Assembly (NCBI GenBank): GCA_028275505.1
Contig: JAPWUP010000015.1
Location: 1-40,989, forward strand
Direction: 5' to 3'
Source of the DNA: Bryobacteraceae bacterium
GTDB taxonomy: Bacteria; Acidobacteriota; Terriglobia; Bryobacterales; Bryobacteraceae
DNA: 40,989 bases
A program made the position numbers and the translations under genes. The notes below the pieces were generated by a model that was not told the DNA's origin, searched no databases, and saw only the letters and a program-made list of their open reading frames with translations. Below are positions 11,180 to 26,428 of this stretch, in pieces. Numbering within the stretch: position 1 is the first letter of the stretch; the number at the start of each line of letters is the position of its first letter.

Positions 11180-11872
11180 ATGAATTGCCAGCAAGTGCGA
11201 CGTTCGCTCTCCGAGCACCTGGATGGTCGGCTTTCCGAGGCCGAACACAGTCAGGTCGTGTCGCATCTGGAACAGTGCCCGCAGTGCGGGGAGCTGCTGG
11301 AGCAAATGGCTCGCGTGCGTGCGGCTTTGCAGAAACTGCCTTCGCTCACGCCGCCGCCCGAGCTGACGAGCGCCTTGCTTCTGCTGGCCTCCCGCGAGCG
11401 GGTGCGCAGGCTCGCTTACGGTAGCGCCAAAGCCCTGGCGGCGCACTTGGTGGACCGGGCCAGGCTGTGGGCAGAAAATATCATGCGTCCGGTGGCCTTG
11501 CCCGCCGCTGGGGGGCTGCTTTCTGCTCTCATCCTTTTCGCCATGCTGGTGCCCAGCGTGCTCTTCCTGCACTCGCCCGGCAAGGATGTCCCGTTGGTAG
11601 GCTTGGTCCAGGAAGCGACTGTGGCCACACCCGCCCCGTTCGGCATTGAGGCCGGCGGCTTCATTCTGGAAGTGACCGTGGACCGCCGTGGACGAATGGT
11701 GGACTATACGATCGCGGAGGGAGACCCGGTGATCCACAACCCCCGTCTGCGACGCTCGATCGAAAACTACGTCCTGTTTACCGGTTTCCGTCCCGCGACC
11801 GCGTTCGGCCAGCCGGTCTACGGCAAAGTGACCGTGTCTTTCAGCCGGTATCGCTTCGACGTGGGGAGCTGA
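11180..11872 (+). CDS. Zinc-finger anti-sigma factor with C-terminal TonB-like domain
   Basis: This 230-residue single-pass membrane protein should hold the adjacent ECF sigma factor inactive. The N-terminal anti-sigma domain has the zinc motif H-x3-C-x2-C (SHLEQCPQC, residues 28-36). One membrane helix follows at about residues 110-130. Unusually, the outer part (residues 155-230) reads like a TonB/TolA C-terminal domain: GGFILEVTVDRRGRMVDYTI, an arginine-rich helix, then TGFRPATAFGQPVYGKVTVSF. Such a domain in the periplasm could sense or touch outer-membrane proteins. The fold assignment of the C-terminus is inferred from the pattern of an initial strand, helix and final amphipathic strand. 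The gene is cotranscribed with the sigma gene. Confidence 0.8.
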   Translation: MNCQQVRRSLSEHLDGRLSEAEHSQVVSHLEQCPQCGELLEQMARVRAALQKLPSLTPPPELTSALLLLASRERVRRLAYGSAKALAAHLVDRARLWAENIMRPVALPAAGGLLSALILFAMLVPSVLFLHSPGKDVPLVGLVQEATVATPAPFGIEAGGFILEVTVDRRGRMVDYTIAEGDPVIHNPRLRRSIENYVLFTGFRPATAFGQPVYGKVTVSFSRYRFDVGS

Positions 11873-11887
11873 GAGAAACGTCGGCTC

Positions 11888-12646
11888 GTGCCGCGCAAGC
11901 TGGGCCAGCACTTCCTCCATCGCCGGGATGTGCTGGAAAAAATCGCGCGGGCGGCCTGCCCGGAACGCGAACCTCTGGTCATCGAAATCGGCGCCGGCAA
12001 AGGGGCTCTCACCGAGCGCCTCGTGGGCCGCGCCGACCGCGTAATCGCCATCGAGCTGGATCCCGCCCTGGCGGATTTCCTGCGCCGGCGCTTTCAGGAT
12101 AGCGGCGCCGTCGAGGTGGTTCAGGCCGATGTCCTCGGTCTCGATCTCGGTCAGTGGGGACCGGCAGTCATCGCCGGGAACATCCCTTACTACATCACCT
12201 CAAAAATTCTGGAACGCGTTCTGGCCGTGCTGCCGCCAGTCAAGCGCGCCGTCCTACTGGTGCAGCGCGAAGTGGCGGAACGGATCGCTTCCCCTGCCGG
12301 CCGCCGTGACTACGGACTGCTCAGCGTCCACGTGCAGGCGGTGGCGGATCCCGAAATTCTGTTCCGCGTGCCGCCCTCCGCATTCACTCCCCCGCCCGAA
12401 GTGAGCTCGGCTCTGGTTCGTCTGACGCCCCGGGCGACGCCACTGCTCGATCGCGAGCGCCTGCCGGCCTTCCTGGAATTCGCCGCGCGCTGCTTCCGTT
12501 ACAAGCGGCGCACGCTGCGCAACAATCTGGCGGCCTGGTATCCCCCATCGCTCCTCGACTCGCTGCCGGAAGCCGCACTCCGCGCCGAGCAGTTGTCTCC
12601 CCACGAGCTGCTGAAGCTTTACGAGAAGCTGAACTCGCCGGCCTGA
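11888..12646 (+). CDS. rsmA: 16S rRNA (adenine1518-N6/adenine1519-N6)-dimethyltransferase
   Basis: RsmA (KsgA) dimethylates two adjacent adenines near the 3' end of 16S rRNA during late small-subunit assembly. The 252-residue protein begins KLGQHFLHRRDVLEKI, the family signature, followed by the SAM-binding IEIGAGKGALTERL, the acidic IAIELD, QADVLGLD and the catalytic NIPYYITSKIL. The C-terminal rRNA-binding part contains FRYKRRTLRNNL. The start is GTG at 11888, which gives the expected N-terminus. It lies 15 bp after the anti-sigma gene and 27 bp before gltX. Confidence 0.96.
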   Translation: MPRKLGQHFLHRRDVLEKIARAACPEREPLVIEIGAGKGALTERLVGRADRVIAIELDPALADFLRRRFQDSGAVEVVQADVLGLDLGQWGPAVIAGNIPYYITSKILERVLAVLPPVKRAVLLVQREVAERIASPAGRRDYGLLSVHVQAVADPEILFRVPPSAFTPPPEVSSALVRLTPRATPLLDRERLPAFLEFAARCFRYKRRTLRNNLAAWYPPSLLDSLPEAALRAEQLSPHELLKLYEKLNSPA

Positions 12647-12658
12647 AAAGGCGCTGGT

Positions 12659-12664
12659 TATACT
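12659..12664 (+). promoter_or_regulatory. -10-like hexamer 9 nt before gltX
   Basis: TATACT ends 9 bases before the gltX ATG and no Shine-Dalgarno sequence lies between them. If used as a -10 box, transcription would start 2-4 nt before the start codon, giving a leaderless mRNA. No good -35 box is visible. Confidence 0.35.
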
Positions 12665-12673
12665 GGAATTTTC

Positions 12674-14095
12674 ATGCCCCGATTGCGTTTTGCTCCTTCG
12701 CCTACCGGCTTTCTCCATATCGGCAGCGCGCGGACGTACGTCTTCAACTGGCTTTACGCGCGGCGCCACCGTGGCGCCATGATTCTCCGTATTGACGACA
12801 CGGACGTGGACCGCAACACGCAGGCCTCGCTGGAATCCATTTTCGAGGGCCTGCGCTGGCTGGAGCTGGAATGGGACGAGTTGTATCACCAGTCCCAGCG
12901 CCTGCACCTGCACCGGCAACTGGCCCAGGCCCTGCTGGAGCGCGGCGTGGCCTACCGCGATTTCACTCCTCCTTCCGCCCAGCCGGAGGAAAAGGCGCAC
13001 GGGGCCGGCCCCTGGCTGTTCAATCCGGGTATGCGGGAGCTTTCCCGTGAGGAAAGCGATCGGCGTGCGGCCGCCGGCGAGCCGTTCGTGCTGCGTTTCC
13101 GGGTGCCCCGCGATCCGCCCAGGATCCTGCGCTTCCGCGATTTGGTCTACGGCGAGCAGGAAAAATCCACCGCCGACATCGAGGACTTTGCCCTGCTGCG
13201 CAGCGACGGCACCCCGACCTATCACCTGGCCTCCTGCACCGACGACATTGACATGAAGATCACCCACATCGTGCGCGGCCAGGACCACCTCACCAACACG
13301 TTCAAGCACATTCTGATCTTCGAGGCGGCCGGGGCGCCCCTGCCCGAGTTCGCGCATCTGCCGCTTCTGGTGGCGCCGGACGGATCGAAACTTTCCAAAC
13401 GCCGCCACGGCGCCGTGGTGAGCGTCACCACCTATCGCGACGCCGGATTCCTGCCCCACGCTTTCGTCAACTTTCTCTGCCTGCTGGGCTGGTCGCCCAA
13501 GGACAACCGCGAGGTGATGACGCGGCAGGAACTCATCGAGGCTTTCTCGTTCGAGGGGATCAACCGGTCCAACGCCGTGGTGAACTTCCGCGAGGACGAC
13601 CCCTTCGATCCCAAGGCGGTCTGGCTCAACGCCCAGCACCTGCGCACGATGCCGGTGCGCGAGCTGGCGCCTTACGTGCGGCGGACGCTGGAGCAGGCGG
13701 GCGTCCCCATCCCTTATGACGAGGAGCGGTTCCTGACCGTCATTGACGTGATCCGCACGCGCTATTCCATGCTGACGGACTTCGTCACCCGCGGACGCGC
13801 TTACTTCAGCGAGGACTACCCGATCACGCCTGAGGCGCAGCAAAAGCTGGACGAACCCGGCGCGCGGCAGCTTCTCCACGAGCTGGCTGACCGCCTGGAG
13901 GCATCCCCGGAATTCACCGAAGCCAGCGTCGAGCGCGACCTCCGGCAGTTGGCCGCCGAGCGCGGCGTCAAGGCAGGCCTGATCATCAACGCCGCCCGCG
14001 CCATCCTTACCGGACAGACCGTTGGCCCTAGCGCGTTCACGGTGTTCGTGACGCTCGGCCGCGAGCGCGTGCTCGAACGCCTGCGGCGGGCCTGA
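12674..14095 (+). CDS. gltX: Glutamyl-tRNA synthetase
   Basis: This 473-residue class I aminoacyl-tRNA synthetase charges tRNA with glutamate. [20 protein letters not shown] carries the HIGH-type motif (HIGS) and SKLSKRRHG is the KMSKS-type motif (KLSKR). The catalytic domain continues with RIDDTDVDR, and the C-terminal half is the all-helical anticodon-binding region. The length is typical. No amidotransferase genes lie nearby, so whether it is discriminating or makes Glu-tRNA(Gln) cannot be told. The gene begins 27 bp after rsmA. Confidence 0.96.
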
Positions 14096-14141
14096 GAGAT
14101 CCGGCCCGGCGAGCCGTTCTGATGCTGTGGGAGATTCTGAC

Positions 14142-15401
14142 ATGAGCCGACTGGTTCCTCCACACGGAAGTCCGACCCTCAAGCCGCTGCTCCTCGATGA
14201 AGCGGCCCGACGGGAAGAGTTGCGGCGGGCCGAGAGCTTGAAGAAAGTGCCCATGACGAGTCGCGAGACCAGCGACCTCATCATGATGGGCATCGGCGCC
14301 TTCACGCCGCTCGAGGGCTTCATGGGCTACGACGACTGGAAAGGCTGCTGCCAGAACTACAGCCTGCCCGGCTACGGCGGCTTGTTCTGGCCCATCCCGA
14401 TCACGCTGTCGGCCGACGAAGAACTGGCGGGCTCGATCGCTCCGGGCGAGGAAGTGGCCCTTTGGGATCTTGAGACAGGGGCCATCATGGGCACGATGCG
14501 CGTGACCGAAAAATACCGGATTGACAAGGAGTACGAGTGCCGCGAGATCTTCCGCACCACGGATCCTGCGCATCCCGGAGTGCAGAAAGTGCTCCAGCAA
14601 GGCGCCGTCAATCTGGCCGGCCCAGTTCGGGTTCTCTCCGAGTCCTACTACCCGGAAATGTTCGCGGGCATCTACCAGCGACCGGCCGAGGCACGCCGCA
14701 TTTTCGAGGAGCGCGGCTGGACGACTGTTGCGGCGCTGCAACTCCGCAATCCCATGCACAATTCGCACGCCTACCTGGCGTGGATCGCGATCGAGGTCTG
14801 CGACGGCGTCTACATTCACCAGTTGATCGGCAAGCTCAAACCCGGCGACATACCGGCGGAAGTAAGGGTGCGGGCCGTGGACGCGCTGGTGAACAAGTAC
14901 TTCCGCAAGGACCGCGTCGTGCAGGGCGGCTACCCCATGGAAATGCGTTACGCCGGACCGCGCGAGGCCCTGCTCCACGCCGTCTTCCGACAGAATTACG
15001 GCTGCTCGCACCTGATCGTAGGGCGCGACCACGCCGGCGTGGGCAATTACTACGGTCCCTACGACGCGCAGAAAATCTTCCGGGAAATCCCGCCCGGGGC
15101 GCTGCGCATCCAGCCGCTGTGTCTGGACTGGACGTTCTACTGTTACGAGTGCCGTTCGATGGCCTCCATGAAAACCTGCCCGCACGAAACCACGGCGGTG
15201 ATTGACGAAAACGGTCAATACCGCGGCGGGGCGCGCCTCATGCTTTCGGGGACGCTGTTGCGCAAGCTGATGAGCGAAGGCAAGCCGGTGCCGCCGGAGT
15301 TTTCCAAACCCGAAGTGATCGCGATCCTCAAGGAATATTACGATTCGCTGGCGAAATCCTCCGCGGCGGATCGGGCCTCGGAGCCGCCGCGCCCGGCCTG
15401 A
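14142..15401 (+). CDS. sat: Sulfate adenylyltransferase (ATP sulfurylase, homo-oligomeric Sat type)
   Basis: This enzyme of about 419 residues converts ATP and sulfate to APS and pyrophosphate, or works in reverse. [13 protein letters not shown] is the nucleotide-binding QxRNPxHxxH motif and GRDHAGVG is the second signature. A CYEC pair followed eight residues later by CPH is the probable zinc site seen in many Sat proteins. The ATG at 14142 is preferred to the GTG at 14127 because GGGAGA lies about 8 nt upstream. No APS kinase domain is fused, and no aprAB, dsr or cysH genes lie nearby, so it cannot be tied to dissimilatory metabolism; an assimilatory role is the simpler reading. Confidence 0.94.
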
Positions 15402-16862: not shown

Positions 16863-19211
16863 TCAGCGGTCCAGGCCGATGCGGCAGAGATGTTCCTGAT
16901 AGACGCGCCGCTCCTGCTCCACGTAGGCGCGGTTGCGGCGAGCCAGCTCGTCGAAGTCCACCAGGTGGGCGTCGAACTCAGGACCGTCCACGCAGGCGAA
17001 CTTGACCTTGTCGCCGACCGTGACGCGGCAGCCGCCGCACATGCCGGTGCCGTCCAGCATGATGGGATTGAGGCTGGCGTACGTGCGCACGCCCCACTGG
17101 CGCGTCAGCTCTGCGGCAGCGCGCATCATAGGGATGGGGCCGATGACGTGGACCGCAGCCGGCGGGTCCGCACGCAGGCTCCGCCAGTGCCGCATGAGAT
17201 CCACCACGGTGCCGTGGAAGCCATAGGAGCCGTCGTCGGTGGCCCAAAGCATTTCATCCGAGGCTCCGCGCAGCTCGTCCTCCAGGATGATCAGGTCGCG
17301 CGAACGGGCGCCGCAAAGCACGGTCACGAAGTTGCCCGCTTCGCGAAACGCCCGCGCCACCGGCAGCACTTCGGCAACGCCGACCCCGCCGGCCACGCAC
17401 AGCACGTGGCCCAAGCGCTCGATCGTGGCGGGCGAACCCAAGGGTCCGAGCACATCGGCAAGCTGCTGGCCCGGTTCCAGATCCGCTGTCAATCGCGAGG
17501 TCTTGCCCACCGCCTGAACCACCAGTACGATGGTCCCGCGTTGGGCGTCGCCCTCGACCAGCGTCAGCGGGATGCGCTCGCTGGCGGGCGTGGGACGAAC
17601 GATGACGAACTGACCCGGCTTCCAGTGAGCAGCAATGGCCGGGGCATGAATTTCCAGCCAGGAGATATCGGGCGTGAGGCGCCGTTTGTTGAGAACGCGG
17701 AACTCCGGCGGCGCCAGGATCGCCGGAACGCCATCTCGCCTGGGCCGTGTGGCGGCGGCGCGTTCTTCCCGCAGCAGGCGATCGATCGCTTCGGCCGCAG
17801 CGCGCCCGTCGCGCATGGCCAGGATGACAGTGGACCCTCCGCGCACCACATCGCCGCCCGCAAAGACGCGCGGCAGACTGGTGCGACCGGATTCGTCCAC
17901 CACAATCTTGCCCCGTTTGGTGATGAGCTCGGGCGTGGTCCGCTGGACCGTGGGGTTGGGGCTCTGGCCGATCGCCATCACGATGGTGTCTACGGGCATG
18001 CGGAACTCCGAGCCCGGGATGGGAATGGGCGCGGGGCGGCCAGTTTCGTCGGGCTCGCCCAGCCGCATCCGGATGCATTCGACCTCACGGACGAAACCCT
18101 GCTCGTCGCCCAGAATCCGGACGGGCACCGCGAGGAATTCGAACTTCACGCCTTCCTCTTCGGCGTGCTCGATTTCTTCGGCGCGGGCGCGCAGCTCGGC
18201 CCGGCCCCGCCGGAACATGATGATAGACTCGCTGCCCAGGCGGAGTGCCCACCGGGCCGCATCCATGGCCGAGTTGCCGCCACCTACCACGATGGTGCGG
18301 GCGCCCACACGCACGGGCGTGTCGCTGGCGGGGAACTCATAAGCTTTCATGAGATTGATTCGGGTCAGGAACTCGTTCGCCGTGTACACGCCAATGAGGT
18401 TCTCGCCCGGAATCCCCATCAGGTGGGGCAGGCCTGCGCCGGTACCCAGAAAGACCGCGTCGAACCCCGCATCGAACAGTTCCTGGAGCGTACAGGTTTT
18501 GCCCACGATGAAATCGGTGCGGAATTCGACGCCCATGGCGCGCAGGTGGTCCAGTTCCTGGCGAATAATTTCCCGTGGCAGACGGAAAGGCGGGATGCCG
18601 TAAATCAGCACGCCGCCCAGCTCGTGCAGGGCCTCGAGAATCGTAACCTTGTAGCCCTTGCGCACCAGGTCAAACGCGGTGATCAGGGAGGCTGGACCGC
18701 TGCCCACCAGGGCCACACGCATTCCGTTCCAAGGCGGCACGGGAGGAAGGCGGGATTCGCCTGCCTGCTGGTAGTAGTCGGCTGCGAAGCGTTCGAGCGC
18801 ACCAATGGCCACCGGCTCGAGCTTGGTCTTCGGGTTGCCGAGCAGGCACTCTTTCTCACAAAAGAGCTCTTTCTGGCAAACGCGCCCGCAGATGCCCGGG
18901 AACGGGCTTTGCTCGAAGATCTTTGCCGCGGCCCCCAGATAATCGCCTTCGACGATACGGGCAATGAAGCCCTTGATGTCAATATGGAGCGGGCAGGCAG
19001 CCACGCATTTGGGCTCGCGGCAATCCAGGCAGCGCAGCGCCTCCGCTCTGGCCTGCTCGAGCGTGAAGCCGAGGGCGACCTCGCGCGCGGTGGTCACCCG
19101 CAGGTGATGGTCGAGGAGCGGCATGCGCTGCCGGGGCGCCTTGGGAGTGCGCTTGATCCGAGCCTGGGCGGGCGGAGCGACGGAGACCTGTGGGTTTTCT
19201 GGGTTACTCAT
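16863..19211 (-). CDS. Fused NfnB-NfnA-type NADH-dependent ferredoxin:NADP+ oxidoreductase
   Basis: This 782-residue protein joins two subunits that are normally separate. Residues 1-485 are GltD/NfnB-like: [4Fe-4S] ligands C61, C64, C69, C73 and C108, C112, C118, C122, an FAD site VALVGSGPAS and an NADPH site VVGGGNSAMDAA. Residues 500-782 are NfnA/PyrK-like: a flavodoxin-reductase fold with KPGQFVIVRP, the nucleotide site CVAGGVGVAEVLPV, and a [2Fe-2S] site D720, C725, C728, C740. That one-Asp, three-Cys spacing is the hallmark of NfnA. Nfn complexes couple NADH and reduced ferredoxin oxidation to NADP+ reduction by electron bifurcation; related Sud proteins reduce sulfur. It follows ric by 64 bp. 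GltD alone is excluded by the second half. Confidence 0.88.
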   Translation of the reverse strand: MSNPENPQVSVAPPAQARIKRTPKAPRQRMPLLDHHLRVTTAREVALGFTLEQARAEALRCLDCREPKCVAACPLHIDIKGFIARIVEGDYLGAAAKIFEQSPFPGICGRVCQKELFCEKECLLGNPKTKLEPVAIGALERFAADYYQQAGESRLPPVPPWNGMRVALVGSGPASLITAFDLVRKGYKVTILEALHELGGVLIYGIPPFRLPREIIRQELDHLRAMGVEFRTDFIVGKTCTLQELFDAGFDAVFLGTGAGLPHLMGIPGENLIGVYTANEFLTRINLMKAYEFPASDTPVRVGARTIVVGGGNSAMDAARWALRLGSESIIMFRRGRAELRARAEEIEHAEEEGVKFEFLAVPVRILGDEQGFVREVECIRMRLGEPDETGRPAPIPIPGSEFRMPVDTIVMAIGQSPNPTVQRTTPELITKRGKIVVDESGRTSLPRVFAGGDVVRGGSTVILAMRDGRAAAEAIDRLLREERAAATRPRRDGVPAILAPPEFRVLNKRRLTPDISWLEIHAPAIAAHWKPGQFVIVRPTPASERIPLTLVEGDAQRGTIVLVVQAVGKTSRLTADLEPGQQLADVLGPLGSPATIERLGHVLCVAGGVGVAEVLPVARAFREAGNFVTVLCGARSRDLIILEDELRGASDEMLWATDDGSYGFHGTVVDLMRHWRSLRADPPAAVHVIGPIPMMRAAAELTRQWGVRTYASLNPIMLDGTGMCGGCRVTVGDKVKFACVDGPEFDAHLVDFDELARRNRAYVEQERRVYQEHLCRIGLDR

Positions 19212-19275: not shown

Positions 19276-20001
19276 TCAGCCAAGACCGGCTTTGGCTTCC
19301 AGCTCGACCGCACGCGGAAACAGAATGTTGTTCTCCAAGTGAATGTGGATGTGCAAGTCCGCTTCCAATTCCTGGAGTCCGCGGTATAGCGCCTCCCATG
19401 TGGCGCAGGCATCCGCCGGCAGCGTATAGTTCCCCGTGATGCTTCGCATCTTCGCCAGGGCCACGGCGGCATTGTCGTGCTCCATCCGCATCACGCGGAT
19501 CGGATTGTTGACCGTGCCAAAGGGTGGCGGCGGCACGCGCCGCTGCTGGTTCACCGCTTCCTCCAGGCCCCGAAGGGTGGGGAACAGGATCATCTCTTCC
19601 TTGTGCAGGTGGCCGTAAAGCTCTTCTTGTAAGGCAAAATAAGTCCGTTCCAATTCCTCGAGCAGGGCGGCATGAGAGGGGTGCGCCTCGCGTGTCCGTT
19701 TCAGCCGGTGCTCCAGTGCGGGAAGCTCCGCCCGCAGGTATTCGTGGTGCTTTTCGAGGATGTGGTCTATCAGCTCGGAGACCGTGGCCCGCGTCCAATC
19801 ACGGGCTGGCTCCGGGGCCTGCGAAACAGCAGCCTCGATCTCGGCCACGATGGCGTCCGGGGAGAGTCCGCGACTCAGGCAGGCCTGCTCCAGGGACTGG
19901 TCGCCGTGACAGCAGTAGTCCAAGCCGAACTTCTCCAATACGGGGATGCTGCCGGGCAGCTCGGCGGCAATCTGCCCGATGGCTTTCGTCGGATGGATCA
20001 T
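19276..20001 (-). CDS. ric: Iron-sulfur cluster repair di-iron protein (Ric/ScdA/YtfE family)
   Basis: This 241-residue cytoplasmic protein repairs iron-sulfur clusters damaged by nitric oxide or oxidants. The N-terminal ScdA-type domain has the double-cysteine motif DYCCHG near residue 28. The rest is a hemerythrin-like four-helix bundle whose di-iron ligands are the histidines and glutamates in LEKHHEYLRAELP, LYGHLHKEEMILFP, MRMEHDNA and HIHIHLENNILFP. The start at 20001 is chosen because CGGAGG lies 6 nt upstream and the sequence begins like known members (MIHPTKAIGQIA); the frame is open further upstream without similarity. A CRP-like box lies 73-88 bp upstream. The nfn fusion gene, itself rich in iron-sulfur clusters, follows. 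Confidence 0.93.
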   Translation of the reverse strand: MIHPTKAIGQIAAELPGSIPVLEKFGLDYCCHGDQSLEQACLSRGLSPDAIVAEIEAAVSQAPEPARDWTRATVSELIDHILEKHHEYLRAELPALEHRLKRTREAHPSHAALLEELERTYFALQEELYGHLHKEEMILFPTLRGLEEAVNQQRRVPPPPFGTVNNPIRVMRMEHDNAAVALAKMRSITGNYTLPADACATWEALYRGLQELEADLHIHIHLENNILFPRAVELEAKAGLG

Positions 20002-20073
20002 GAACGCCTCCGGAAGTGGGATTTGGGAGTTGGACTCCGAAATTGAGGGTACCTGGCAGGCGCAGTAGGAGTC

Positions 20074-20089
20074 GGTGACCTCGGTCACA
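20074..20089. promoter_or_regulatory. CRP/FNR-family operator candidate in the ric-cytochrome spacer
   Basis: GGTGA-N6-TCACA matches the CRP consensus TGTGA-N6-TCACA at 9 of 10 positions and contains the perfect palindrome GTGACC-TC-GGTCAC (20075-20088). On the minus strand a -10-like TACCCT at 20051-20046 would place the ric start site about 42 bases from the centre of the box, the classical class II activation distance. Which CRP/FNR-type regulator binds is unknown. Confidence 0.45.
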
Positions 20090-20223
20090 GGTGTTGAGAT
20101 TTGCCATGGCGAACTTTGACGCACCCCACGGAATTTCACCCACCTCCCAAGCCCCACTCTCGGATCCGGATGCCCTGTTTTCCGCTCTCCACAAGCCAAA
20201 AACTTGAGTCCATGTTTGGCCCC

Positions 20224-20286
20224 TTGACTGCATTAGTGCTAATCCGGGTTATACTCTCAGTTATACTCTCAAGAGGATTTGGAGGG
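20224..20286 (+). promoter_or_regulatory. Promoter region of the decaheme cytochrome operon
   Basis: TTGACT (20224-20229) is followed by the palindrome ATTAG-TG-CTAAT (20232-20243) and by two tandem 12-base copies of TTATACTCTCA (20249-20260 and 20261-20272), each containing a TATACT -10-like hexamer. The first TATACT is 20 bp from TTGACT, longer than ideal. GGAGGG (20281-20286) is the ribosome site, 5 nt before the ATG at 20292. The palindrome between the promoter boxes is a likely repressor site. Confidence 0.4.
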
Positions 20287-20291
20287 CGCCG

Positions 20292-22343
20292 ATGATGCAT
20301 TTGCCAGTCTCGGCGGCCAGCAAACTGCGTCTGGCCAGCGCATTGATTGCGGTCATTGGGGCGGCAGTCGTTTTGAGTAGCTCCGATACTCCGGTGTTTA
20401 CCGAGAGGGACAAGGCCTACTACGCCGATCCCAATCTCGTCAACTTCGTGCGTCCTGGATTGGTGTTGAAGATCCTTTCGGCTTCCATCGAGGACGACGG
20501 CACCATCAAAGCCCGGTTCAAGATCACCGATCCCCGGGGCTTGCCCTTGGACCGAGAGGGCATAACCACGCCCGGTCCGGTATCGGTGCGCCTCGTGGCG
20601 GCCTATATTCCCAAGGGACAAACGCAGTACGTGGCTTACACGACCCGCGTCCAGACCAGCCCCATCACGCGGGTGAGCGCTACTCAGGCCAACTACGACG
20701 TGGGCGGGACCTTCACCAAGGTCGGCGACGGCGAATATGTCTATACCTTCGCCACCAAAGCGCCTCGCGATTTCGATCGCACGGCTACGCACGCCATCGG
20801 CGCCTGGGCGGCCCGGGACCTGAGCGAGTTCGACCTCCAATCCATCAACAACTACGACGACGACGTTTACACCTGGGTGCCCGACGGCTCCAAGGTCACG
20901 GTGGTGCGGGACGTCATCAAGACGCAAACCTGCAACAAGTGCCACGACCCGCTCTCGGCGCATGACAATCGCCGCAGTATGGAGCTGTGCGTGCTGTGCC
21001 ATACCCCGCAGACCGTGGATCCCGATACCGGTAACAGCATGGACATGCCGGTGCTGATCCACAAGATCCATATGGGCAGCCAGTTGCCCAGCGTGCGGGC
21101 GGGCAAGCCTTACCGGGTCATTGGGTACCAGCAAAGCGTCCATGATTACTCGAGCGTGGTCTTCCCCGCGGATGCTCGCAACTGCACCTTCTGCCACGAG
21201 CAGAACACCGGCGCGGCCCAAGCGAGCGCCTTCCTCAAACCCAACCGGACGGCTTGCGGAGCTTGCCACGATAACGTGAACTTCGAGACGGGCGAGAATC
21301 ACGCCAACCTGCCGCAACTCAGCGACAAGATGTGCAGCACCTGCCACATCCCGCAAGGTGAGCTTGAATTCGACCTCTCGATTTTGGGGGCCCACACGAT
21401 TCCGCGCTTCTCGCGCGATCTGCCGGGCGTGGTCTTCGAGATCCTGCGTGTGACGGACGGCTCGGCCGGCAAGCGGCCCACCGTCACGTTCTCGGTCAAG
21501 GAACGCAGCGGCAAGCCGATTCCGCTTTCGGAGATGACGCGGCTGGCTCTGGTGCTGGCGGGTCCCACCAGCGATTACGCAACGTATGTAAGTGAGGATG
21601 CCCTGCGCTCCACTTGCGGCGCGGACGGTACGTGCACCTACACGTTCAACGCTGCGATCCCGGCCGACGCCAAGGGCACCTGGGCTGTAGGAATCGAAGG
21701 ATACCGGACCCTCTACCTGCTCGCGGGTACGCGGCGCGAGCGCAGCGTCCGCGACCCCGGTGCGAACAAGGTCGCTTACTTCTCGGTGGACGGCTCGCCG
21801 GTGGAGCCGCGCCGGCAGGTGGTAAGTCTGGCCAAGTGCAATAACTGCCACTTCAGTCTCAGCCTGCACGGCGACAATCGCAATCAGATCGAACAGTGCG
21901 TGCTTTGCCACAACCCGACCATGACCGATCGCGCGGTGCGTCCGGCGGCGCAGATGCCCGCGCAGACTATAGATCTGCGGCACATGGTCCACCGGATCCA
22001 TCTGGGCGAAGAGAACGAGTACGAGTACACCGTATACGGCAGGGGTTCGGTGGCATACGACTTCACGGAAGTCCGCTATCCGGGCGATCTGCGCAGTTGC
22101 GATCGCTGCCATGTGAACAACTCGGAGCGACTGCCGCTGCGACCCAACCTCCTGCCCGTGACGAGCCCGCGCACCCTGCTTAATCCGATGGGGCCGGCGA
22201 CGGCGGCTTGCCTTGGTTGCCACACCAGCGTAGCGGCCGCAGCGCATGCCCTCACCAACACCTCGGACAAACTCGGTGAAGCCTGCGCCGCCTGCCACGG
22301 CAGCAATAGCGAGTTTTCCGTCCAGCGGGTGCACGCCCGCTAG
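20292..22343 (+). CDS. OmcA/MtrC family decaheme c-type cytochrome
   Basis: This 683-residue cytochrome carries exactly ten CxxCH heme sites in two groups of five: residues 214, 233, 298, 322 and 348, then 516, 536, 603, 640 and 665. The groups are preceded and separated by cysteine-poor, beta-rich domains (about 45-210 and 355-510), the four-domain plan of Shewanella MtrC and OmcA, which pass electrons to minerals or other acceptors at the cell surface. A second cysteine pair without heme, C442 and C448, lies in domain III, where MtrC has a redox-active disulfide. A signal-like helix spans about residues 10-30, but there is no lipobox cysteine, unlike MtrC. It is the first gene of a three-gene porin-cytochrome operon. 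Confidence 0.93.
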   Translation: MMHLPVSAASKLRLASALIAVIGAAVVLSSSDTPVFTERDKAYYADPNLVNFVRPGLVLKILSASIEDDGTIKARFKITDPRGLPLDREGITTPGPVSVRLVAAYIPKGQTQYVAYTTRVQTSPITRVSATQANYDVGGTFTKVGDGEYVYTFATKAPRDFDRTATHAIGAWAARDLSEFDLQSINNYDDDVYTWVPDGSKVTVVRDVIKTQTCNKCHDPLSAHDNRRSMELCVLCHTPQTVDPDTGNSMDMPVLIHKIHMGSQLPSVRAGKPYRVIGYQQSVHDYSSVVFPADARNCTFCHEQNTGAAQASAFLKPNRTACGACHDNVNFETGENHANLPQLSDKMCSTCHIPQGELEFDLSILGAHTIPRFSRDLPGVVFEILRVTDGSAGKRPTVTFSVKERSGKPIPLSEMTRLALVLAGPTSDYATYVSEDALRSTCGADGTCTYTFNAAIPADAKGTWAVGIEGYRTLYLLAGTRRERSVRDPGANKVAYFSVDGSPVEPRRQVVSLAKCNNCHFSLSLHGDNRNQIEQCVLCHNPTMTDRAVRPAAQMPAQTIDLRHMVHRIHLGEENEYEYTVYGRGSVAYDFTEVRYPGDLRSCDRCHVNNSERLPLRPNLLPVTSPRTLLNPMGPATAACLGCHTSVAAAAHALTNTSDKLGEACAACHGSNSEFSVQRVHAR

Positions 22344-22375
22344 CGAAGGCGCTCCTGCACCCGGGAGACGGAAGC

Positions 22376-23353
22376 ATGTTTCGGTCGCTGCGGACGGCCA
22401 ACAAGGCCCACACAACCCACACTCCTCCTCCGCAAACTCGGGGGCTCTTCCCCCGCGGCCCCCGACCCGTCCTTGCGTCCGCAGCGGCCGTTTTTTTGTT
22501 TGCCTGGACAGGGCCTTCAGGGGCACAGAAGCCCGCGCAGCCCGGTTACGCCGGCTCCGAGATCTGTGCTGCCTGCCACGAGGATCTCGTCAAGGCCTTC
22601 CGCAAGAACCCTCACCAGCAGGCGGAAGCGCACGGCGCCTGGCAGGGCAAGGCGTGCGAGGCCTGCCACGGGCCGGGCGCGAAGCACGCTGAATCGGGCG
22701 CGGCGACCGACATCCAGAATCCTGCGAAGCTGGCCGCGGCGCGATCCGAGAAAATTTGCCTGGAATGTCACGGGAGCCAGCCCGCGTTACGTGCCCGCGC
22801 GCACGGGGCTCACAGCCGCAGCCAGGTGAGCTGCGTTGCCTGCCATCGGATCCACGGCGCTGTGGCGGAATTGACGCTCAAGGCGCCGGGCGTGGTCAAC
22901 CGGCAATGCTCGAGCTGCCATCAGGCCGAGTGGGCTGACTTCCTGCGCCCACACACGCACCGGTTGCGCGAAGGCGCCATGAGCTGCACGGACTGCCACG
23001 ACCCGCACGGCAGCTCGCGCCCCCGTTCCATGCAGATCGTCTCGGCCAACGAACCGGGATGCTTCCGCTGCCATGCCGACAAGCGCGGGCCGTTCCCGTT
23101 CGAACATCCCCCGGTGCGGCTCGAAGGTTGCCAGGCCTGCCACGAGCCGCACGGCTCGCGAAATCCGCGCATGCTCGTGCGGGCCGAAGTCCGCTTCCTG
23201 TGTCTGGAGTGCCATTCCAATATCGGTTCGAAGCCCGCGCTCGGCGGCATCCCTCCGGCGCTGCATGACTTGCAAAGCCCGCGGTACCGCAACTGCACCA
23301 TCTGCCACAGCAAGATTCACGGTTCGTTCGTGAGCCGGGGGTTGACACGATGA
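22376..23353 (+). CDS. DmsE/MtrA family decaheme c-type cytochrome
   Basis: This 325-residue periplasmic cytochrome has ten CxxCH sites, at residues 64, 94, 128, 153, 178, 204, 229, 252, 276 and 307, evenly spaced at about 25 residues, as in MtrA and DmsE. These proteins insert as a heme wire into the MtrB barrel and connect periplasmic donors with the outer-surface cytochrome. The signal peptide has an unusually long polar lead (about 30 residues) before the hydrophobic core PVLASAAAVFLFAW and a cleavage site near PSGA. GGGAGA lies 7 nt before the ATG. The gene starts 32 bp after the first cytochrome gene, and its TGA overlaps the ATG of the barrel gene (ATGA). Confidence 0.93.
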   Translation: MFRSLRTANKAHTTHTPPPQTRGLFPRGPRPVLASAAAVFLFAWTGPSGAQKPAQPGYAGSEICAACHEDLVKAFRKNPHQQAEAHGAWQGKACEACHGPGAKHAESGAATDIQNPAKLAAARSEKICLECHGSQPALRARAHGAHSRSQVSCVACHRIHGAVAELTLKAPGVVNRQCSSCHQAEWADFLRPHTHRLREGAMSCTDCHDPHGSSRPRSMQIVSANEPGCFRCHADKRGPFPFEHPPVRLEGCQACHEPHGSRNPRMLVRAEVRFLCLECHSNIGSKPALGGIPPALHDLQSPRYRNCTICHSKIHGSFVSRGLTR

Positions 23354-25302
23354 GACGTCTGCTGCTGCCCATCGCCGCCTTTGCCGTGCTGGCCCAGCAG
23401 CCAGCCGAGGAGAGCAAACCTGCGCCGGCCGCTGAACAGCGCCTCAGTGGAACGGTGGAGTTCGGCTACCGCGTGCTAAGCGGCGTGGGAGGCGACTTTC
23501 AGACCTACCGGAGCGTGGTGAACCTCGGCGAAGGTCCCAAGCTCTTCTCTTTGGATGCGAGCTGGGATGATCCCAAGGGCCGGCTGTTCGACAAGCTCGA
23601 TTTGCGCATGAATTCTTGGGGCGGCGATCCGTACAACACGGCCCGCTTCGAGGCCGGTCGTGCACGCGCCTGGCGGTTCACAGCAGATTACCGTAACATC
23701 CAGTACTTCAATTTCCTGCCCTCGTTCGCCGATCCCACGATCGAACGGGGTGTTTTGCTGAACCAGCGCGCGCTGGATTCCTACCGGCGCGCCACGGACC
23801 TGGAGCTGGTGGCACTGCCTGGTCGCCGGATCACGCCGTACGCCGCCTACAGCCGCAACTCCTCGCGCGGTCACGGGATCACGACCTTCGTTCTGGACGC
23901 CAACGAATTCCCCGTACCGCACATGTTGCGCGACCACAGCGACAACGTTCGCGGCGGCGTCCGGCTGGAGTGGCCGCGCTGGCAGCTTCACCTGGAAGGC
24001 GGCGGCATCACCTGGCACATTGACCAGCAGGTTTACACCTTCGCCGAGCGCAACTTTGGCAACGTGCTTCAGCCCGTGCTGGGGCAGACGCTGTTCCTGG
24101 ATCGCGGGAACCAGTCGCTCGACGTGCGCGGATCGAGCCGCTTTGCGCGGGGATCTTTCCGCCTGCACCCGGCGGACTGGGCTGAGCTGGCCGGGCAGTT
24201 CCAGTTCAGCCAGCCGGACAGCAAGACGCGGTACGCCCAGAACAATTCCGGCAATTTTGTCAATTTCACGCTGTTGCGTTTCTACAGCGCGGAGCTGGTC
24301 TCGGCGGAAGCCAGGGCGCGACAGCCCCATACGTCGGCCAGCTTCGCCGCGGAGCTGCGCCCGCTTCAGCGCGTACGCATCGTGGAGAGCTGGATGACGG
24401 ACCGGCTCCACGACGCGGGCGCCGCCCTGTTGACGGATCGCCTCCTGGCCGGCGAGCAACTGCTGGATGCGCGGACGGCAAGCGCCGCCGAGAGGCTGGT
24501 CCTGAACTACAACCAGCAGGAAATCTCGCTCATGGTGGACGTGGCTCGCGGCTTTACGCTCCGCGGCGGCCACCGCTATGTTTGGGGCGACGCCGAGACG
24601 CCTGCGCCCCTGATTCTGCTGCCGGGCGCGCAACCGAAACCCGAGCTGCGGCGTCACGTCGCTCTTGCCGGCGGCAGTCTGGTGGCGGGGCGCCGGTTGC
24701 GCGTGACCGCCGATCTGGAAGCTTCGCCCGGCGATCGCTCCTACTTCCGTACGAGCCTGCATCGCTATCAGCGGGGCAAAGTCAGAGCGCGCTACCAGAT
24801 CCTGCCTTCGCTGCTCGTCTCGGCCAACTTCCACGTGCTGAACAACCAGAATCCCACGGCGGGCATCGGCTACGACTTCCTCAGCCGGCAGAACTCGCTG
24901 GGGCTGCAATGGACGCCGGGCGGCGGCAAGTGGATCAGCCTGCTCGGCGAGTACACGCGCTACACCCTGCGTTCGGATCTGACGTGGCGCGATCCGGCCA
25001 CCTTGCGCAGCGAGCTATCGAAGTACCGCGACAACGGGCACGCTGGCACGGGATGGCTCGAGGTCGGCTTGCCGGGACGGGGCAGCGTGCAGCCGCGGAT
25101 CCACCTGGGCGGCTCGCTGGTGGCAGCCTCGGGGACGCGGCCGGCACGTTTCTATCAGCCGTTCGGGCGTCTGGCTGTCCCCTTCGGTCGGCGCGGCCAG
25201 TGGTACGGAGAGTGGCGCTGGCACGCGCTGACGCAGCCGTTCTACCTCTACGAGGGATTCCGCAACCACCAGTTCGTCACGGGCCTGCGTCTGACGATGT
25301 GA
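23350..25302 (+). CDS. MtrB/PioB family outer-membrane beta-barrel of the porin-cytochrome conduit
   Basis: This 650-residue protein has a signal peptide (MRRLLLPIAAFAVLAQQ) and then long runs of alternating polar and aromatic residues typical of large outer-membrane barrels, for example RAWRFTADYRNIQYFNFLPS, a motif common in MtrB/PioB proteins. The C-terminal strand ends FVTGLRLTM. The barrel insulates the MtrA-type cytochrome through the outer membrane and presents it to the MtrC-type cytochrome. No N-terminal CxxC as in Shewanella MtrB is present. The call rests on barrel character plus direct translational coupling (4-base overlap) with the decaheme gene. Its 3' end overlaps the convergent UvrC-like gene by 26 bp. 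Confidence 0.85.
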   Translation: MRRLLLPIAAFAVLAQQPAEESKPAPAAEQRLSGTVEFGYRVLSGVGGDFQTYRSVVNLGEGPKLFSLDASWDDPKGRLFDKLDLRMNSWGGDPYNTARFEAGRARAWRFTADYRNIQYFNFLPSFADPTIERGVLLNQRALDSYRRATDLELVALPGRRITPYAAYSRNSSRGHGITTFVLDANEFPVPHMLRDHSDNVRGGVRLEWPRWQLHLEGGGITWHIDQQVYTFAERNFGNVLQPVLGQTLFLDRGNQSLDVRGSSRFARGSFRLHPADWAELAGQFQFSQPDSKTRYAQNNSGNFVNFTLLRFYSAELVSAEARARQPHTSASFAAELRPLQRVRIVESWMTDRLHDAGAALLTDRLLAGEQLLDARTASAAERLVLNYNQQEISLMVDVARGFTLRGGHRYVWGDAETPAPLILLPGAQPKPELRRHVALAGGSLVAGRRLRVTADLEASPGDRSYFRTSLHRYQRGKVRARYQILPSLLVSANFHVLNNQNPTAGIGYDFLSRQNSLGLQWTPGGGKWISLLGEYTRYTLRSDLTWRDPATLRSELSKYRDNGHAGTGWLEVGLPGRGSVQPRIHLGGSLVAASGTRPARFYQPFGRLAVPFGRRGQWYGEWRWHALTQPFYLYEGFRNHQFVTGLRLTM

Positions 25303-26428
25303 CGGCGGTGAGATCGCGGTGCGCCGCCACGCGTGAAATCGCCCTGACCAACCGCCGGTAAGGTACAGCGTCCAGGGACTCGAACGGCAGCCACTCCCCC
25401 TCGCGTGCGCTCGAATAGAACCACCGCGCCAGCAGCGCCAAATGCTCCTCGCGGCGCTTGAGGGCGGGCCGTTCGGGGCTTAGCGTCGTCACCAGCTCGC
25501 GCAGCCTTCTGTCCATGGATTGACCTGCTGCTTCGGGACGGCAATCGAGCCGATGCGGCGGCTGCCAACACCCCGCAACGACGAACCACAGCAGAACAAG
25601 GCCCGGTTCCGCGGCAGGGGTCACGGCCACCCCACACAATCGCTCGATGTCGGCGGCCAGCTCGCCGCGCGACTTGAGGGCTTCCTCGATCTTCTGGATC
25701 CGGCGGTGCACCCGTGCAGCCTCCTCGAAATTGCACTCCTGACTGAGCCGTTCGCGCGCGGCCACGAGCACGTCCAGCAGAGACCGTCCCTGCGTGCGGA
25801 GGAACTCCAGGATCCGCTCGATCTCGGCGCGGTATTCCTCGCGGCTGACGGCCTGCTGGCAGGGCCTCAGACACAGGTTCATTTCGCCGTAAATGCAGCC
25901 GGGATGGGAAGGGGAGGGATCGAGGTCTTCCTCGCAGCGCCGCATCTGGAACAGGTCCAGAAAACGGTTGCGGAAATTCTCGGCCGCGGCGCGCGTCGGA
26001 AACGGGCCGTAGTAAAGGGCAGGAGCCGCGCTCAGTCGCGTCGTGATCTGGCTGCGCGGAAACGGGTTGGTCAAGACGATCTTGAGCAGCGGCGGCGGTC
26101 GCAGCTTGATGCGGACGCGGTAATCCTCCGGGAAGTGCTCCATCGCCAGCTCGTAAAGTATGAGGCTGGCCTCCAGATTGGATCCCACGAGCCAGTAATG
26201 GATGCGCTGGGCGATGCCGCGCAAGTTGAGCCAGCGTCCGCCTGCGCTTTCCGGGCGCAGCAGCCGGCGCAGCCTTCGGCGGAGCAACAGCGTCCGACCC
26301 AAGTAAGGCGATCCGCCACGCGTTTCGATTAGGAAGACGGCAGGCCGGTCGGGCGCCTGTTGGAGGATCTGGGCGAGCACGTCGTCCCCGCCAGTCAGCT
26401 CCAGCGATTCTGGGGGGCCTGCGAACAT
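25277..26428 (-). CDS. UvrC-like protein lacking the C-terminal nuclease half
   Basis: This 383-residue protein resembles the N-terminal part of the nucleotide-excision nuclease UvrC. Residues 28-130 form a degenerate GIY-YIG domain (AVFLIETRG for GVY, SPYLGR for YVGK). A cysteine segment HPGCIYGEMNLCLRPC matches the UvrC iron-sulfur region, and LSQECNFEEAARVHRRI is the UvrB-binding UVR helix. It has no RNase H-like endonuclease or helix-hairpin-helix domains, as in E. coli Cho. At the place of the catalytic glutamate the sequence reads LILYELAME, where an ungapped alignment puts Tyr. It may be a Cho-like incision enzyme or an inactive UvrB-binding protein. GGAG precedes the ATG, and the amidase gene ends 17 bp upstream. 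Confidence 0.75.
   Translation of the reverse strand: MFAGPPESLELTGGDDVLAQILQQAPDRPAVFLIETRGGSPYLGRTLLLRRRLRRLLRPESAGGRWLNLRGIAQRIHYWLVGSNLEASLILYELAMEHFPEDYRVRIKLRPPPLLKIVLTNPFPRSQITTRLSAAPALYYGPFPTRAAAENFRNRFLDLFQMRRCEEDLDPSPSHPGCIYGEMNLCLRPCQQAVSREEYRAEIERILEFLRTQGRSLLDVLVAARERLSQECNFEEAARVHRRIQKIEEALKSRGELAADIERLCGVAVTPAAEPGLVLLWFVVAGCWQPPHRLDCRPEAAGQSMDRRLRELVTTLSPERPALKRREEHLALLARWFYSSAREGEWLPFESLDAVPYRRLVRAISRVAAHRDLTAVTSSDAGP

Follow-up and report, generated by a model that had tools for sequence, protein, structure and literature searches.

A probable MtrCAB-type porin-cytochrome conduit in a Bryobacteraceae bacterium and its candidate ImcH- and CbcL-like electron donors

A stretch of 40,989 nucleotides from a Bryobacteraceae bacterium (contig JAPWUP010000015.1 of assembly GCA_028275505.1, analysed over its full length and termed the window) carries three adjacent genes whose products have the families, folds and order of the MtrCAB porin-cytochrome conduit. 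The window is contig C347 of a genome of 392 contigs and 4.66 Mb that is 98.9% complete. The trio is probably a genuine conduit of this type, in which electrons would pass from menaquinol to an ImcH/CbcL-like module encoded elsewhere in the genome, then by way of carriers in the periplasm to the barrel-enclosed MtrA, on to MtrC and finally to metal oxides or humic substances.

The three genes form a tight operon on the forward strand. The mtrC-like gene (20292-22343; 683 amino acids) is followed after 32 bp by the mtrA-like gene (22376-23353; 325 amino acids), which shares an ATGA overlap at its stop with the mtrB-like gene (23350-25302; 650 amino acids). The MtrC-like protein has ten CX2CH heme motifs in two groups of five, and the MtrA-like protein has ten that are evenly spaced, just as a preliminary description of this DNA had read them; the operon it outlined was likewise correct to the base. 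These numbers lie far above chance, as shuffled residues gave means of 0.02 motifs for the MtrC-like and 0.08 for the MtrA-like protein. Every other frame in the window contains at most one CX2CH, and the barrel protein contains neither this motif nor any cysteine.

The product of the first gene is a decaheme cytochrome of the OmcA/MtrC family with a four-domain architecture. It matches TIGR03507 over nearly its full length at 530.6 bits (curated cut-off 209.3; E 6.1e-159), and PF22113, the MtrC/MtrF II-IV domain, matches it twice. The motifs of the first pentaheme domain (20931-21347) begin at residues 214, 233, 298, 322 and 348, and those of the second (21837-22298), which lies under a PF22113 match to residues 508-681, at residues 516, 536, 603, 640 and 665. 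In an AlphaFold2 model with a predicted local distance difference test (pLDDT) value of 77, one beta domain stands before each pentaheme domain (residues 58-195 and 380-498). The solved structures closest to this model are OmcA (Z 20.3), MtrF (18.6) and MtrC (18.5), together with UndA, a group at Z 18-20; all other folds score Z 8.6 or less. A hydropathy peak over residues 12-30 (20325-20381) marks a Sec-type signal segment. The CX8C disulfide motif described in domain III of Shewanella MtrC (PMC9973256), where it is a redox switch, is not present here; domain III has instead a CX5C formed by C442 and C448 (window 21615-21635), which is kept in some relatives only.

The second gene encodes a decaheme of the DmsE/MtrA family, matching TIGR03508 at 248.6 bits (curated cut-off 192.2; E 6.6e-74). 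Its closest solved chain is chain A of the Mtr complex (6r2q; phmmer 1.2e-39), a chain that the entry labels oddly. Against the models of Geobacter GSU2203 and GSU2204 (NF041028 and NF041027) it reaches only 199.7, far under the curated cut-off of 325. The start codon is uncertain, as a long N-terminal region precedes the signal. TIGR03508 carries the name "DmsE family", and this membership is what would favour a conduit that feeds an enzyme outside the cell or at its surface, for example the dimethyl sulfoxide reductase system DmsEFAB. However, that name is used for MtrA as well as DmsE, the partner at the surface belongs to the MtrC family of cytochromes and is no reductase, and no molybdopterin-enzyme gene was recognised among the scanned neighbouring open reading frames, so that a reductase-feeding role is very unlikely.

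The third protein is assigned as MtrB from its modelled fold. An AlphaFold2 model made with an alignment of 33 sequences (pLDDT 86.6) has 26 strands, as counted from the listed model elements, and the first four are short; solved Shewanella MtrB likewise has 26 strands, of which the first four are shorter (PMC7198977). Foldseek ranks the MtrB chain 6r2q_B first (E 5e-13, TM 0.66), and structural comparison with VIA aligns the same chain over 551 residues at Z 25.6 and a root-mean-square deviation of 3.6 Å, the next fold scoring Z 16.4. Because MtrB is the top structural match and the strand number and short first four strands are those of the solved protein, the modelled barrel is taken to be MtrB by fold, with a sequence too diverged for the family models. 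When searched directly against solved structures, the sequence gave chance matches only. Among its orthologues, 4 of 22 match the MtrB/PioB model TIGR03509 weakly (best 3.2e-5), and some weakly match the GSU2203/GSU2204 models (best 2e-4). The preliminary description of a complete MtrCAB-type conduit would have suffered from a third protein that was no large barrel, or from cytochromes similar to MtrC and MtrA in heme count alone, and neither was found: both cytochrome families score above their cut-offs, and the barrel and MtrC-like models match MtrB and OmcA/MtrF/MtrC, respectively. By analogy with the solved Shewanella complex, the MtrA-like protein is predicted to sit inside the barrel with the MtrC-like protein docked to it; in that solved complex, hemes C5 and A10 are 8 Å apart (PMC7198977).

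Conservation extends over the whole locus. In the sister species G002 the entire neighbourhood of the conduit is syntenic, and the proteins are 85% (MtrC-like), 73% (MtrA-like) and 82% (barrel) identical. Ratios of nonsynonymous to synonymous substitution are 0.09, 0.17 and 0.11 in the same order, values that are rough given a synonymous divergence of about 1.2; by this sequence comparison all three genes are under purifying selection. Two blocks 5ʹ of mtrC, CCCTTGACTGCA and GGTTATACT, are also kept in the sister species when the window is aligned with locus L031. The region that holds them (20200-20291, forward strand) is a possible promoter of the mtrC-mtrA-mtrB operon, for which a scan for consensus sigma-70 promoters found nothing.

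The distribution of the conduit was followed in 61 sampled genomes and in the best 80 named barrel loci, to which genome and locus counts refer, respectively. Among the genomes, 32 carry barrel orthologues of about 33-82% identity, and most of these belong to the same family. Labels at nearly all of the 80 loci, such as Acidobacteria(ota), Terriglobia, Bryobacterales, Bryobacteraceae or Solibacteraceae, confirm the acidobacterial host suspected from the start; one locus, L129, bears the name of the gammaproteobacterium Nevskia soli and is probably a mislabelled acidobacterial contig. Over the readable parts of the loci, gene order is CAB in 59, CCAB in 3 and ABC in 1, the others being cut or without a recognised mtrC. 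The position of the surface cytochrome first, which had been regarded as a different order, is the usual one; C-A-B order gives mtrCAB its name. More than one mtrC lies near the conduit at L122, L127 and L135. Full-length barrels of 29-32% identity were also found in other classes of the phylum. Additionally, a second class of locus (L051-L063), spread through the order, pairs an MtrA-like decaheme with a distant barrel (about 20-30% identical) and has no MtrC; these pairs mostly lack ImcH/CbcL-like genes, and the window's own genome yielded no such pair.

The preliminary description had remarked on the absence of a CymA-type donor nearby. None lies within the window, but the genome does encode a candidate inner-membrane pair on contig C216, and homologues of one or both of its members are found near the conduit at 23 of the 80 loci, within fetched stretches of up to 8 kb on each side. 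At those loci the homologues precede mtrC, follow mtrB or lie on the opposite strand. The idea that a donor is missing was rejected once searches with PF03264 (NapC/NirT) and with homologues had located the C216 pair. The first member, an ImcH-like protein of 484 amino acids, has three N-terminal hydrophobic helices followed by CGKTCH (a CX3CH motif) and five CX2CH, and matches PF03264; the CX3CH is kept in all 31 homologues examined. Its gene directly follows that of a 557-residue CbcL-like protein in which nine CX2CH precede a b-type membrane domain (formate-dehydrogenase gamma match, 4.5e-12). The two proteins resemble the published architectures, which comprise for ImcH three helices at the N-terminus with a CX3CH behind the last of them, at least five CX2CH and similarity to NapC/NirT, and for CbcL nine CX2CH and then a six-helix b-type domain like HydC/FdnI (PMC6295460). 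Simple hydropathy shows four clear helices at the C-terminus of the CbcL-like protein, versus six in that architecture.

An association between this module and the conduit is evident across genomes. An ImcH-like gene is present in 29 of the 32 genomes with a conduit barrel versus 5 of the 29 without one (Fisher 4e-9, ancestry ignored); within the family only, the counts are 27 of 30 and 1 of 7 (p 2e-4, again ignoring ancestry). In the sister species G002 the conduit and the ImcH/CbcL-like module lie on one contig, approximately 64 kb apart, so their pairing in the window's genome is no binning artefact. A survey in 2018 had found no mtrAB or mtoAB next to imcH (PMC6295460). A literature search for links between ImcH and MtrCAB in Acidobacteria returned only a review, but a 2026 study of metagenome-assembled genomes describes porin-cytochrome clusters accompanied by ImcH- or NapC/NirT-like genes (PMC13264449).

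In the relative G044 (contig C12, locus L045), a single open frame of 1164 amino acids (11811-15305, reverse strand) stands between mtrC and mtrB. The frame combines an ImcH-like region (44% identical) with four c7 triheme domains and a region resembling MtrA (47%), and its 28 heme motifs are 27 CX2CH plus a single CX3CH. Third-position G+C is high throughout the frame, and a relict signal-like hydrophobic segment lies at the junction, without a usual start codon shortly upstream. The 18 genomes of that family contain no second copy, and the frame may yet be a sequencing or assembly error. If real, the fusion would be strong evidence that the ImcH and MtrA parts work together, but its weight is limited as long as it stands as one unverified example. 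A possible, tentatively held extension is that Bryobacterales feed a Shewanella-type outer-membrane wire from a quinol oxidase of the Geobacter type (ImcH, in many cases accompanied by a CbcL-like protein), and that at least one relative, G044, has condensed this route into one 28-heme polypeptide, so that a covalent chain of hemes would connect the quinone pool with the outer membrane.

A further component may be a four-heme cytochrome. Baker et al. (2022) described an MtrCAB Group 5 from Acidobacteriia/Bryobacterales in which such a gene lies immediately downstream of mtrB in all members, with no inner-membrane quinone oxidoreductase near the clusters (PMC8805035). Here, the four-heme gene accompanies the barrel at 52 of the 80 loci and is absent downstream of mtrB both in the window and in G002. 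The genome's own relative is found on contig C31. Because this copy adjoins unrelated genes and is conserved within the genus, it looks relocated.

Taken together, these parts suggest the following route. Menaquinol is the most likely electron source, from which the ImcH-like and/or the CbcL-like nonaheme/b-type cytochrome would take electrons. Carriers of the c type, possibly including the four-heme cytochrome of C31, whose relatives adjoin mtrB, would cross the periplasm. The ten hemes of MtrA, threaded through the 26-strand barrel, would then pass electrons to the ten hemes of MtrC at the cell surface, and, when oxygen runs low, MtrC would pass them on to humic substances or to minerals of Fe(III) or Mn(IV).

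The direction of flow bears on two other accounts. The genome has two COX1-family genes, which suggests a facultative aerobe, and a search of this 98.9% complete genome yielded no RuBisCO large subunit, other carbon-fixation routes not having been searched for. Since both observations fit a facultatively aerobic heterotroph, outward respiration is favoured over autotrophic electron uptake. A conduit running inward, from Fe(II), a cathode or a partner cell to the quinone pool in the manner of MtoAB/PioAB, has precedents, as decaheme-porin pairs serve Fe(II) oxidation elsewhere and homologues of CbcL and MtoC occur in oxidisers and reducers alike (PMC6295460); moreover, the COX1-family enzymes could accept the electrons. 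It is nevertheless improbable: in addition to the missing RuBisCO subunit, a full MtrC-type surface cytochrome is present, and ImcH homologues were at the time of that survey known from Fe(III) reducers alone (PMC6295460). The preliminary description had named metal or humic respiration and electron uptake side by side; we infer the former and regard the latter as less likely.

The same oxidase genes would also suit an outlet rather than a main respiratory chain, one that dumps surplus reductant or reduces dissolved shuttles, flavins or humics whenever a mainly aerobic heterotroph briefly lacks oxygen. Bryobacterales are mostly heterotrophs, and a RIC-type di-iron repair protein encoded divergently beside mtrC fits redox stress. 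This account is rather unlikely, as the wide conservation of the conduit and the quinol-oxidase module associated with it suggest an energy-conserving chain.

Several observations weigh against an MtrCAB-type conduit supplied by the C216 pair. The MtrC-like protein has no LXXC lipobox that would anchor it at the surface, its first cysteine being that of heme motif C214; among 72 distinct homologues, at most nine have a lipobox-like motif in the searched stretch, about five of them inside a plausible signal. Where the preliminary description had pointed to the OmcA/MtrC and MtrB/PioB families, hidden Markov model searches bore out the first (TIGR03507), whereas the window barrel matches no Pfam or NCBIfam model, including MtrB_PioB and TIGR03509. 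The C216 proteins are likely ImcH-like and CbcL-like, an assignment made by architecture, and in the window's genome the pair is unlinked to the conduit. Furthermore, shared ancestry could contribute to the co-occurrence counts, which ignore it, and the CbcL-like gene tracks the conduit less well than the ImcH-like gene does (22 of 32 genomes versus 5 of 29).

Divergent from mtrC, the gene for the RIC/YtfE-type di-iron repair protein lies at 19276-20199 on the reverse strand and also adjoins mtrC at L031 and L032. Beyond it (16863-19211, reverse strand) is a 782-amino acid fusion of GltA/NfnB-like and SudB/NfnA-like parts that likewise adjoins mtrCAB at L031 and L032; L039 has two separate genes. 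On the 3ʹ side of mtrB, a UvrC-like gene occupies 25277-26428 on the opposite strand.

Soils and peat commonly harbour Bryobacterales, and respiration of solid acceptors has been demonstrated in only a few acidobacteria. With both the conduit and a partly linked quinol-oxidase module conserved in most sampled genera, extracellular respiration becomes a testable trait of the family.

Compared with the Shewanella MtrCAB complex (6r2q; PMC7198977), the window's system has the same two decahemes, 26-strand barrel with short first four strands, C-A-B order and folds. However, the barrel is only about 11% identical to Shewanella MtrB in structural alignment and has no cysteine, the MtrC-like protein lacks the LXXC lipid anchor and has CX5C for CX8C, and the proposed donor is not CymA. 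With Geobacter, the likeness is in the inner membrane, where the C216 pair resembles ImcH and CbcL in architecture; the difference is that imcH-like genes and the conduit are often neighbours in Bryobacterales, an arrangement of which the 2018 survey had no case (PMC6295460). The MtrA-like protein and some orthologous barrels match the GSU2203/GSU2204 models only below cut-off or weakly. The pairing suggests that outer-membrane components of the Shewanella kind can be combined with inner-membrane ones of the Geobacter kind, a point relevant to the evolutionary assembly of such chains.

The nearest known system is Group 5, with which the window shares its order Bryobacterales, an mtrC-mtrA-mtrB cluster, the lack of an adjacent quinone oxidoreductase and a four-heme family in the genome. 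All three proteins resemble Bryobacterales homologues across the family, which indirectly supports reading the conduit as a probable member of this Bryobacterales branch. It differs, as does its sister species, in having no four-heme gene downstream of mtrB, and other members seen here have more than one mtrC or nearby ImcH/CbcL-like genes, neither of which the Group 5 study reported. Homologues of MtrA and MtrC in acidobacteria, including Solibacter, were noted in 2013 (PMC3669403), the full Bryobacterales cluster was described in 2022, and ImcH- or NapC/NirT-like genes with porin-cytochrome clusters were reported in 2026. To these, the present analysis adds probable electron donors encoded in the genome, the linkage of such donors to the conduit and their co-occurrence with it in the order, an apparently relocated four-heme gene and the fused frame of G044.

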